Positions 4,501 to 10,890 of a DNA stretch of 10,890 nucleotides are shown here, one piece after another. This DNA is from Holophagae bacterium (GTDB lineage Bacteria; Acidobacteriota; Thermoanaerobaculia; Thermoanaerobaculales; Sulfomarinibacteraceae). The notes under the pieces are model-generated. The model saw only the letters and a list, made by a program, of their open reading frames with translations, was not told the DNA's origin and did not search any database. The position numbers and the translations under genes were made by a program. Location of the stretch: NCBI GenBank assembly GCA_030609785.1, contig JAUWTC010000042.1, forward strand, positions 1 to 10,890. The letters are read 5' to 3'. Numbering within the stretch: the first letter of the stretch is position 1; every line of letters begins with the position of its first letter.

Positions 4501-4836
4501 TCACCTGGCAACAGCAGCCCGCTTCCGCCGCCTGGTCCGCAATTCCTCTTCCTTGAACATGAACTTGATGCTGTGCTTGAACAGCAGCAAATTGGGCGCA
4601 TCATTGCGGTTGAGCTTGATGCAGTTCTTGTCGTACCACTCGATCCAGCCGACCAATTCGGTACCGTCCGTCAGAACGACGACCATCGAAGTGCGACCCT
4701 GCATCTGCTTGAGGTAGTAATAACTTTCCGCGTTGGTTTGTTCAGCCGGCACCTGTTTCCGCCGACCCGAGGTACGGGCCGGAAACCGTTCCATGGTCTC
4801 GGTCATTGACGGCCGGATCAATTTTCGATCAGACAT
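4501..4836 (-). CDS. hfq: Hfq-like RNA chaperone, divergent long form
   Basis: This 111-residue protein has an Sm/Hfq core at about 38-96: YYYLKQMQGRTSMVVVLTDG, then ELVGWIEWYDKNCIKLNRN, then LLLFKHSIKFMFK. FKH at 86-88 aligns with the YKH motif of Hfq, whose lysine and histidine line the proximal RNA-binding pore; IEWYD aligns with IESFD. By eye, the usual proximal-face glutamine (Gln8 in E. coli) is replaced, and the rim cluster RRER reduces to a single arginine (QGR). A 37-residue N-terminal extension (KLIRPS...) and a basic tail (RTRRRKRAAVAR) flank the core; the tail could supply extra RNA contacts. Hfq hexamers pair small RNAs with mRNAs. ATG 4834-4836 follows GGGAGG at a good distance. 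It is last in the pta-purD-purE-PSP1 group, 166 nt after the PSP1 gene. Confidence 0.85.
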   Translation of the reverse strand: MSDRKLIRPSMTETMERFPARTSGRRKQVPAEQTNAESYYYLKQMQGRTSMVVVLTDGTELVGWIEWYDKNCIKLNRNDAPNLLLFKHSIKFMFKEEELRTRRRKRAAVAR

Positions 4837-8502: not shown

Positions 8503-8574
8503 TCCTCCGCCTCCTCGCTGCATTGTAGCGTAAACCGGCTGTTGTTCGAGACTTGAGGAGAGCTCGTCTTTCTG

Positions 8575-8694
8575 GGCTCGGGCTTGGTTGACGGACGCGG
8601 TCGCGGTTTGCGGACGGCGTCGCGGATTACTGACGCGGTCCCGGTCAACTGACGCTGTTTCCTGACGCGGCCCCGGTCCCGGACCCTGTATCCA
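8575..8694 (+). repeat. Modular 6/13-nt degenerate array, block 1
   Basis: Read on the plus strand, 120 nt divide without remainder into modules of lengths 6,13,6,13,6,13,6,13,13,6,6,6,13. The 6-mers (GACGCG, GACGGC, GCCCCG, GTCCCG) fit GNCSCK loosely. Each 13-mer is a 6-mer plus a 7-mer: GTCGCG+GTTTGCG, GTCGCG+GATTACT, GTCCCG+GTCAACT, GACGCT+GTTTCCT, GACCCT+GTATCCA. The first modules (GGCTCG, GGCTTGGTTGACG) are weaker. It lies in the pta 5' flank and touches the 3' end of element A. It codes for nothing recognisable. Confidence 0.7.
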
Positions 8695-8695
8695 T

Positions 8696-8953
8696 TCCCG
8701 GCCTTCGGAGTCGCGCAGGGCGCGCCCCCGCTCGGCCCTTTCCCGGAGGGGCAGCAGTTCTCGGACCGGATGGGGGACCGCCCCTCCGGGAAAAGACCTC
8801 GGCGGCCTACTGCCGTCAGCCGAGGCTCTGTCGCTAAGGCGACCGCCGTGGGTTGCCAAGCTCGCATTTCTCCTTCCCAGCACATCAATCGGGAGGTCGA
8901 CCCGCGAAAAATGCGAAGCATGGCAGGCCCCGTTTGAGGGAATTAGGCGCTCT
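8696..8953 (-). ncRNA. Candidate structured RNA element, copy A
   Basis: Read on the minus strand from 8953 to 8696. In order: AGAGCGCC; a long imperfect stem of TGCCATGCTTCGCATTT (8925-8909) with AAATGCGAGCTTGGCA (8869-8854) around a 39-nt loop containing CTCCCGATTGAT; GGCAACCCACGGCGGT (8857-8842); a 5-bp hairpin GTCGC-CTTA-GCGAC (8843-8830); a 7-bp stem CCTCGGC/GCCGAGG (8825-8797); a perfect 14-bp hairpin TTTCCCGGAGGGGC/GCCCCTCCGGGAAA (8793-8780 and 8752-8739); then CCGAAGGCCGGGA (8708-8696). Copy B repeats this order with different stem sequences. It does not match any RNA class I recall. It could be a leader of pta, a free RNA or a foldable DNA element. The strand is inferred from the arrangement only. 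Confidence 0.5.
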
Positions 8954-8959
8954 CTGAAT

Positions 8960-8990
8960 TGAGCGTCGGCAGCGACCGCGTCGGCAAACA
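8960..8990. repeat. Short run of array-type modules between elements A and B
   Basis: The minus strand reads GACGCG, GTCGCT, GCC, GACGCT across 8982-8962. These are the same 6-mers as in the arrays, with one 3-nt interruption. They lie in the spacer from which the two structured elements diverge. Confidence 0.35.
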
Positions 8991-9243
8991 AGAGCGCCCC
9001 TCTCGGACGGGGCGTGCCGGGTGCGGCTTTCTTCACCGGGCAGAACTCCCGACTGATCCGCCGTCGCGATGAAAGCCGACACCGGGCAACCCTCGGCGGT
9101 GCTGCCGGCAATCGAGTCTCGGCCAACGCCGTAGGCCGCCGAGGTCATTGCCTCAAGAGGCGAGAATCACCCGAAACCCGCCCCGCCGCCTCTTGAGGCA
9201 ATGCACCGAGCGGGAGGGCGGAAGGCGCTCCCGAAGGCCGGGA
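8991..9243 (+). ncRNA. Candidate structured RNA element, copy B
   Basis: Plus-strand homologue of copy A. In order: AGAGCGCC (8991-8998); hairpin CGCCCC/GGGGCG (8995-9014); a long stem TGCCGGGTGCGGCTTTC (9015-9031) with GAAAGCCG (9071-9078) and CACCGGGCA (9080-9088) around a 39-nt loop containing CTCCCGACTGAT; GGCAACCCTCGGCGGT (9085-9100); GTAGGCCGCCGAGGTC (9131-9146), identical to copy A; a perfect 17-bp hairpin (9146-9162 and 9187-9203, arms CATTGCCTCAAGAGGCG and its complement); then CCGAAGGCCGGGA (9231-9243), also identical. It lies upstream of the secreted TPR gene at 9499 and could be its distant leader, a separate RNA or a mobile repeat. Confidence 0.5.
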
Positions 9244-9498
9244 CCGGAAGAAAGGCGGAAAGGCACGCCTGGCACCTTGATTTCTGAACCTGTTGCTGGT
9301 CTCGAACTCTGCCCGCAAGCCTTAACCTGGCCTGGTTTTGTCACCTGCTGTAGGCTTGGGATATGGAGAAGACAGGCACTGAGCAAAATCAAAACCCACC
9401 GATGATTATGCGGTACTTTTGCGGGCGGGTTGCTGGTCAGGTTGGCCGAGGAAGCCCCGTCAGATAAGGGCAGTTGCCTAATTCACAAAGGAGATCAG
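9244..9498. other. Non-coding leader region upstream of the second TPR gene
   Basis: No convincing gene. A weak promoter-like pair on the plus strand (TTGTCA then ATATGG, 17 nt apart, near 9336-9364) is the only regulatory hint before the strong ribosome-binding site at 9487-9493. GC falls steadily from here into the following gene. Confidence 0.3.
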
Positions 9499-10500: not shown

Positions 10501-10508
10501 TCAGGTTC

Positions 10509-10616
10509 AGCGACAGCCGGCCGCGACAGGGGCCGTGATCCGCGTCAGCGTCAGCGAACCGCGTCCGATGGCAGCGTCCGGATCAGCGAGCCGCGACCGT
10601 GAACCGCGACGGCGAC
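10509..10616 (-). repeat. Modular 6/13-nt degenerate array, block 2 left arm
   Basis: On the minus strand the 108 nt tile exactly as 6,13,13,6,13,13,6,13,6,13,6 (from 10616 down to 10509). The 13-mers are GTCGCGGTTCACG, GTCGCGGCTCGCT, GACGCTGCCATCG, GACGCGGTTCGCT, GACGCGGATCACG and GTCGCGGCCGGCT. The 6-mers are GTCGCC, GATCCG, GACGCT, GCCCCT and GTCGCT. It is the same module grammar as block 1, in opposite orientation. Confidence 0.75.
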
Positions 10617-10655
10617 AGGGGCCGCCGCTGATCCCGGCAACTGAACGCTGATCCT

Positions 10656-10762
10656 GTCGCTGTTTGCGGTCGCCGCCGCGGTTGACGGACCCGGACGCGG
10701 TTTACGGTCCCGGCCCCGGTCGCGGCCGCTGGTATCTAACGCTGTCGCGGTCGCTGTTCTCC
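10656..10762 (+). repeat. Modular 6/13-nt degenerate array, block 2 right arm
   Basis: On the plus strand the 107 nt tile exactly as 13,6,13,6,13,6,6,6,13,6,6,13. The 13-mers are GTCGCTGTTTGCG, GCCGCGGTTGACG, GACGCGGTTTACG, GCCGCTGGTATCT and GTCGCTGTTCTCC. The 6-mers include GTCGCC, GACCCG, GTCCCG, GCCCCG and GTCGCG. It diverges from the left arm across a 39-nt centre (10617-10655). The lack of stop codons creates long spurious reading frames on the minus strand. Confidence 0.75.
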
Positions 10763-10890
10763 AGTCCCGGGGGGGGGGGGCGCGGGGGGCCCCCCCCCCC
10801 GGCCGATCCCCACAGGGGCGCGGGGCAGTCAGCGCGGGCGAGGCACCCCCCGCTCGTGACGGCCCACGGGCGCGACACCCAGACCCCACA
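10763..10890. other. Homopolymer-rich right edge, doubtful sequence
   Basis: A 12-G run (10769-10780), a 6-G run (10784-10789) and an 11-C run (10790-10800) follow the array, then about 90 nt of very GC-rich sequence without module structure or a believable gene. I read this as low-quality sequence or an assembly edge rather than biology. Confidence 0.5.

Follow-up and report, generated by a model that had tools for sequence, protein, structure and literature searches.

The window, by which we mean the whole stretch of 10,890 nt that was analyzed, contains two related non-coding segments, copy A and copy B, arranged head-to-head in the intergenic space that separates a phosphate acetyltransferase gene (minus strand, Pfam PTA_PTB) from a gene for a TPR protein (plus strand). 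As shown in Table 1, each copy is divided into two structural domains, and a degenerate array lies next to copy A. Copies A (minus) and B (plus) align end to end and carry the sequence islands named in the preliminary description in a common order. The outer stems (TGCCATGCTTCGCATTT in A and TGCCGGGTGCGGCTTTC in B) enclose 39 nt in both copies, as had been described, but the claim that each has a matching partner was slightly overstated, since every stem contains one mismatch and one bulged base. The two unrelated hairpins were found as described. In copy A, 14 perfect pairs lie within a 19-nt arm (89% complementary) and 27 nt separate the arms, while in copy B the arms form 17 perfect pairs and are 24 nt apart. 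Comparison of folding with dinucleotide shuffles gave z values of -2.64 for A and -3.39 for B, with 1 of 200 shuffles equal or better for each copy. Chance palindromes were ruled out by the shuffle controls, and a degraded protein gene was ruled out by the alignment, read by eye, in which indels do not come in threes and the pairing is preserved.

Table 1. Features of the A/B region of the window. R1 and A2 are the covariance model and the alignment described in the text.
Feature	Position	Strand	Evidence
Element copy A	8696..8953, read 8953 down to 8696	minus	R1 hit in the host genome at 8697-8952 minus (205.5 bits, E 1.0e-50)
Element copy B	8991..9243	plus	R1 hit at 8992-9242 plus (227.4 bits, E 2.1e-56)
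Copy A domain I, long hairpin: CGGGG..CC / GG..CCCnCG base, variable-but-paired distal stem, 39-nt loop region	8847..8932	minus	helix 1 mapped via alignment A2 and fold
Copy A domain II, GGCC/GGCC-closed junction with hairpins P5 (8798-8780 with 8752-8734) and P6	8700..8807	minus	helices 5-7; inverted repeat I4
Copy B domain I hairpin	9008..9095	plus	helix 1 mapped via A2 and fold
Copy B domain II: GGCC 9134-9137 / GGCC 9236-9239, P5 9146-9162 with 9187-9203, P6 9211-9233	9134..9239	plus	helices 5-7; inverted repeat I5
Asymmetric 39-nt center of head-to-head A/B pair	8953..8991	no strand	letter identity across six pairs from three genomes
Degenerate CMG-N3-4 array immediately 3′ of copy A	8586..8690	minus	array scan, strict hit 8638-8688; repeats D1/D2

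Elsewhere in the window, positions 4501-4836 (minus) encode a 111-aa Hfq-related protein with extended N- and C-termini (Pfam Hfq 30.3 and Hfq_1 31.7 bits, both above cut-off). Homopolymer runs of G12 and C11 at 10769-10800, near the contig end, are probably an assembly artefact.

The covariance model R1 was built from alignment A2, which comprises 54 of 66 full copies, the 12 copies longer than 262 nt having been excluded. A search of the 2.8-Mb MAG (G000) with R1 gave 126 matches at E ≤ 1e-3, the weakest of which include antisense echoes of the hairpins, and 103 matches at E ≤ 6.2e-35. The expectation that the segment is present at least twice was thus a large understatement. With blastn at E ≤ 10, the same genome yielded 67 places for copy B as query and 83 for copy A. 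This one uncultured bacterium carries about a hundred dispersed copies of a ~250-nt non-coding element, among them A and B. Identity to the nearest neighbor within a genome, determined for 89 genus copies, had a median of 76% and a maximum of 94%, and hence a recent burst is not indicated.

The covariance-model search also found homologues in relatives belonging to the host's family. A scan of the class detected the element in 16 of 147 genomes, namely in 16 of the 20 genomes of this family and in none of the 127 others. In a scan of the phylum, 2 of 247 genomes matched, both from the host's family; both scans scored far fewer candidates, and with stricter filters, than the deeper per-genome scoring. 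The latter, applied to 16 family genomes with at most 130 candidates scored in each, gave 129 matches in G075, 109 in G080, 95 in G067, 68 in G039, 62 in G047, 54 in G078, 37 in G088, 35 in G098, 25 in G059, 22 in G055, 12 in G090, 10 in G019, 1 in G011, and none in G003, G007, and G043. Divergent forms of the element occur in nine genera of the family. When 100 of the 114 loci L100-L213 were searched with R1, strong matches were obtained in 19, and 15 of these loci belong to the MAGs Thermoanaerobaculales GMC4.metabat2.271, Holophagae CSMAG_1988, and Holophagae CSMAG_2841. Among the genomes searched, the element is confined to one family of Thermoanaerobaculales-type bacteria. Carriage by a phage or plasmid was considered and rejected, as plasmid and phage searches with window positions 8580-9300 gave no matches and 40 viral loci sharing a 16-mer gave none with the covariance model.

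The 54 aligned copies adopt a predicted fold of two domains, in which 89.4% of cells are paired compared with 41-50% in slid structures. Double changes were seen in 35 of its 67 pairs. The number of double-changed cells, a type of count that is inflated by kinship among copies, was 339, against 107.9 ± 9.5 for shuffles, and none of 500 shuffles reached this number, the covariation score, or the paired percentage. The number of double-changed pairs was reached in 3 of 500 shuffles, and that of further pair types, whose excess is weak, in 41 of 500. Covariation thus survives both the shuffle and the slide controls when more copies are aligned. Domain I (alignment columns 22-49 with 83-110) contains 24 pairs, 14 of them changed on both sides, with 92.4% of cells paired. 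Its base is conserved (CGGGGCGUGCC / GGCAACCCnCGG, with a small internal loop), and the sequence of the distal stem is free while its pairing is kept. Domain II is a GGCC/GGCC-closed junction bearing the hairpins P5 (21 pairs, 14 double-changed, 86.7% of cells paired) and P6 (10 pairs, 6 double-changed, 90.1% of cells paired) and terminating in GAAGGCCGGG. For domain I, P5, and P6, RNAalifold and the pair counts agree. The GGCC/GGCC helix is almost invariant and hence uninformative by covariation; an alternative core pairing of CCnCGGC with GCCGGG, also nearly invariant, may form.

Two separate sets of 15 G067 copies and 11 G039/G088 copies, which were found with R1, aligned by MAFFT and folded alone, repeat this layout with other sequences (double-changed pairs 35 of 59 and 22 of 74, respectively). 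In the G039/G088 set the distal stem, the GGCC helix, P5, and P6 are kept, and the base of domain I is paired differently. The fold is conserved between genera, with this one local difference. More distant genera mostly retain the bases CGGxxCGUGCC / GGCAxxCC.CGG, their distal stems being unrelated yet largely paired, and some matches there retain domain I only. Comparisons of orthologous or near-identical copies showed 2 to 14 broken pairs of 78 per comparison and 0 to 8 kept double changes. Sorted by simple patterns, the stem modules comprise six P2 types and three P5 types that occur in many combinations (24 of 89 copies have an untyped P2), and P5-c was coupled to P6-2 in 4 of 6 copies.

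Some copies of G067 (L321, L323, and L326) have an apparent second domain-II-like module (GACGC..hairpin..GAAGG/GAAGT) just 3′ of the matches. In the same genome, a conserved-looking region with possible small hairpins (GTGATCGAGG..CCTCGA..CACG) was observed 60 nt 5′ of the matches at L317, L318, L319, and L323, which suggests that the element extends further 5′ in G067's genus.

For pairs common to the sense and antisense folds, we counted G-U vs. A-C cells and obtained 289 vs. 117 in the 89 genus copies; counted by columns, the excess was 33 vs. 12 (sign p 0.0025). The two smaller sets showed the same lean without significance (16:9, p 0.23, and 9:5, p 0.42). The consensus energy was better on the strand given here for the element in the genus set (-172.4 vs. 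-160.7) and in the G067 set (-97.4 vs. -93.1), and slightly better on the other strand in the G039/G088 set (-187.3 vs. -185.3 for the given strand). Single-sequence folding energy was neutral, the sense strand being lower in 32 of 66 copies. The excess of G-U over A-C leans toward RNA of the given strand, and judging from these sequence comparisons the active folded form is more likely RNA than ssDNA.

Counts of positions, sites, and arrays were made on contigs chosen for carrying copies, and the densities there are not genome averages. By crude ORF calls, 65 of 70 classifiable copies were intergenic and 5 overlapped calls; two of the latter are A and B themselves, through one over-long call. 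The 93 copies on the chosen genus contigs included 20 in convergent, 16 in tandem sense, 20 in tandem antisense, and 9 in divergent settings, 23 at a contig edge and 5 overlapping ORF calls. The orientation of copies relative to genes is inconsistent. On the first 60 genus contigs, the genes up to 3 kb away from copies included no shared ORF family that formed a within-genome cluster of more than two.

BLAST comparison of congeneric contigs revealed orthologous sites that are filled in one species and empty in another: G078 L305 vs. G075 L336 (289 vs. 9 nt), G075 L345 vs. G000 L349 (342 vs. 107 nt), and G000 L349 vs. G075 L345 (380 vs. 205 nt). The L305/L336 alignment was misplaced by MAFFT and was read by eye from the BLAST coordinates. 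Other sites in this comparison were filled in both species or involved larger rearrangements. By crude calls, one of the three polymorphic copies is flanked by tandem genes and the other two by convergent ones. Neither terminal inverted repeats nor a target duplication was seen by eye in the three site comparisons, where flanks are 82-90% identical and boundaries blurred. With only two species per site, insertion is indistinguishable from loss; the filled and empty sites between congeners indicate that the element is mobile, now or once. The A/B pair itself is absent from the pta locus of three congeners, but this locus is not a clean presence/absence test because its right flank is not syntenic. 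Homology to the window ends beside arrays there (window 8503-8690; L379, L380, L381), with different sequence after pta in the three congeners, which places the A/B pair at a rearrangement point.

The head-to-head arrangement recurs. A first analysis of neighbors, based on 115 of the 126 R1 matches (E ≤ 4.4e-11), found 9 of 13 neighbors less than 150 nt apart to be head-to-head, with one head-to-head and one tail-to-tail pair representing overlapping echoes. Another method counted 11 head-to-head, 2 tail-to-tail, and 4 tandem pairs in G000, and 3 and 1 head-to-head pairs in G067 and G075, respectively. Six pairs (four in G000, one at a GMC4 locus, and one at a CSMAG_1988 locus) have in common the asymmetric 39-nt center, which is identical among them in 27-37 of 39 letters in one orientation and in 8-16 in the other. 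Outside the pairs, similarity of the flanks is limited to stretches of 39 to 124 nt within the sequence compared, which covered 11 of the 12 flanks (all but the one right of L126). The copies of G067 pairs are separated by 59-66 nt. Four other head-to-head pairs, 1.7-2.0 kb apart, were rejected as ends of an autonomous copy, since the DNA that they enclose shares only stretches of 50 to 99 nt (blastn, nucleotide level).

Strict arrays, defined as seven or more units of C[AC]G N3-4, numbered 45 in 749 kb of genus contigs, and a Markov control had none. Of the 45, 26 lay on the same strand as an element and at most 300 nt from its 3′ side (random mean 0.84), and the remaining ones were located 3′ on the other strand (4), 5′ (3 and 1), or far away (11). 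In 232 kb from other genera we found 19 arrays, 5 of them at the 3′ side and 3 at the 5′ side on the same strand. A strict array at most 80 nt from the 3′ end was seen for only 20 of 93 copies, leaving 73 without one, and G075 and G078 have arrays with the same orientation, read by eye, at their pta locus, where the element is absent. Given the few strict arrays, the 5′ arrays elsewhere and those without the element at pta, the arrays are more likely a preferred neighborhood than a tail. Two further arrays were noted. At the G080 pta locus (L381, about 2560-2610), a GGGCTC hexamer array occupies the place of the degenerate array and is perhaps a younger stage of the same array kind. At window positions 10502-10731, behind the TPR gene and with no element copy near, there is a forward CMG-N3-4 array and then an inverted one; the two might pair into a long, imperfect hairpin.

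Mobilizer-type domains were searched for with RVT_1, Y1_Tnp, RRXRR, and TnpB. No mobilizer was found among RVT_1, Y1_Tnp, and TnpB in G000, an absence that is provisional as the genus MAGs are 80-90% complete. RVT_1 was absent from G000, G075, G078, G080, G067, and G039, six genomes with 54 to 129 matches, and present in three element-bearing genomes (G088, G047, G090). Y1_Tnp was not found in G000 and G075 (MAGs 80% and 88% complete); it was detected in 29 of 37 genomes, including G078, G080, and G067 and some without the element, e.g., G043. None of 12 fetched Y1 loci, six of which came from element-bearing genomes, had an element within flanks of ~1.5 kb, R1 being weaker in distant genera. 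The TnpB domain PF07282 was found in 0 of 20 family genomes with a control that responded, and IscB PF14239 (RRXRR search) in 0 of 37 genomes with a control that stayed silent. A search of 4227 Rfam families gave no match at gathering score for the window or at E ≤ 1 for 18 loci, and the four matches at E ≤ 10, all far below their own cut-offs, are chance hits. Among the entries listed in searches of the open-licence literature, no publication dealt with the element family, only with other systems.

We read the element as a non-autonomous mobile intergenic repeat that is selected for its fold and is BOX/bcr1/REP-like in kind. The early suggestion of an undescribed structured RNA or ssDNA-folding mobile element is upheld by the homologues, the covariation beyond shuffle and slide controls, and the filled and empty orthologous sites. 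We consider it likely that A and B are copies of a high-copy, non-coding, non-autonomous mobile element of ~250 nt that is restricted, in the genomes searched, to one family and has a two-domain fold. A factor supplied in trans would recognize the conserved bases of the fold, and since it would read only these, the distal stems could vary freely while remaining paired. The element would be active as a folded single strand, RNA of the given strand being the likelier form. Insertion would be tolerated between genes, often beside arrays, and the A-center-B pair may sometimes be copied as one ~550-bp unit. We also entertain, as a doubtful extension, a new class of RNA-driven bacterial mobile element. 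Here a transcribed, folded ~250-nt RNA, often present as a divergent pair around a fixed center, would spread without a reverse transcriptase, Y1 transposase, or RNA-guided nuclease and would be recognized solely at the invariant bases of its two domains; its stems would diverge and recombine as paired modules, and it would land beside degenerate 6-7-nt arrays in a fixed orientation.

Strong covariation, the G-U excess on one strand and the location of 65 of the 70 classifiable copies between crude ORF calls are also what a dispersed family of functional ncRNAs could present, i.e., paralogous RNA genes or 3′-UTR modules that serve the host in regulation or RNA stability and are not parasitic. 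Copies are also mildly enriched in convergent gaps (20 of 65 vs. 56 of 310 other gaps, rough test p 0.027), which points the same way. However, gaps between tandem genes hold sense and antisense copies about equally (16 vs. 20), the sites vary between congeneric species, and matches per genome range from 0 or 1 to more than 100 inside one family, so we regard this explanation as unlikely. Rather improbable, in our estimate, is a REP/RAYT-type system in which domain II is an oversized REP (GTAG by a GGCC-closed hairpin) moved by Y1 and the A/B pairs are BIME-like dimers. Of 54 genus copies, 47 have GTAGGCC at the GGCC helix, head-to-head and tail-to-tail dimers do occur, and Y1 genes are present in G078, G080, G067, and most of the 37 genomes. 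Yet Y1_Tnp was not detected in G000 or in G075, despite the 129 matches of the latter, none of the fetched Y1 loci is flanked by the element, GTAGGCC is found in only 6 of 15 G067 and 1 of 11 G039/G088 copies, and the unit measures ~250 nt as against 20-40 nt.

The side and strand preference of the arrays (26 of 45), together with RVT_1 genes in the element-bearing G088, G047, and G090, would fit a retro-mobile SINE-like element with the 3′ CMG-N3-4 array as its tail. We hold this to be very improbable: RVT_1 is missing from six element-rich genomes, including G039 (99% complete, 68 matches), same-orientation arrays without the element are present at the pta locus of G075 and G078, 73 of 93 copies have no strict array, and the G067/G039/G088 set also has 5′ arrays (3 on the same strand). 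HEARO is characterized by numerous copies and a long structured RNA. The element is likewise high-copy with a long predicted structured RNA, and it could be viewed as the scaffold of an RNA-guided nuclease (HEARO/omega-RNA of IscB or TnpB), mostly without ORF. With no Rfam match, no TnpB in the family genomes under a responding control, no IscB in 37 genomes under a silent one, and no ORF family near more than two copies per genome in the contigs examined, this explanation appears extremely improbable.

Our preferred reading, a non-autonomous mobile repeat, was compared with known repeats as they appear in the available parts of the cited sources. BOX, RUP, and SPRITE of Streptococcus pneumoniae are high-copy interspersed repeats with predicted RNA folds, BOX being modular, and are non-autonomous and currently dormant; for BOX and RUP, IS elements with similar ends have been proposed (PMC3049150). 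The element resembles them in high copy, interspersion, and predicted fold, a likeness by description. Unlike BOX and RUP, it has no linked IS among the RVT_1, Y1_Tnp, RRXRR, and TnpB domains searched, and its two-domain fold, mosaic covarying stems, and fixed-center divergent pairs are unmentioned for BOX, RUP, and SPRITE in the available part of that source (PMC3049150). The general features of the BOX/MITE kind, i.e., dispersed intergenic copies without ORF and presence/absence polymorphism, are found in the element. The bcr1 repeats of the Bacillus cereus group are group-restricted, 147-167 nt long, and folded, occur in 11-130 copies per genome and have mobile features, the BCR mechanism being tied to a TTTAT motif (PMC6542083, PMC2267715). 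The element is like bcr1 in group restriction, copy number, mobile features, and fold, but has ~250 nt and is coupled to arrays. REPs are GTAG-tagged hairpins that form inverted dimers (BIME) and are associated with RAYT transposases (PMC3733652). Hairpins, inverted dimers, and, in the host genus, GTAG beside the GGCC-closed helix are common to both; the element is larger, its fold has multiple helices, and with no Y1 match in two genus genomes and no element at the 12 fetched Y1 loci, the features tested for REP/RAYT membership are not those of the element. Bacterial stem-loop sequence families, surveyed in 40 genomes, are repeated, mostly intergenic, and of shared fold, and the element is of the same general kind; the available survey text contains no word beginning with Acidobacter (PMC2267715). 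Taking these parallels together, the element works like BOX, bcr1, and REP-type repeats in being intergenic, high-copy, folded, and probably moved in trans (PMC3049150, PMC6542083, PMC3733652, PMC2267715, PMC2229807).

A single fold makes up about 1% of the genome (103 × ~250 nt of 2.8 Mb). As each of three genus genomes contributes around a hundred natural variants or more and nine genera of the family contribute divergent forms, the element provides a ready-made covariation data set. This data set lends itself to asking what maintains the fold of a mobile repeat by selection, be it as RNA or as ssDNA, and by which factor the element is moved; the coupling to arrays and the fixed-center pairs offer testable handles on the mechanism.
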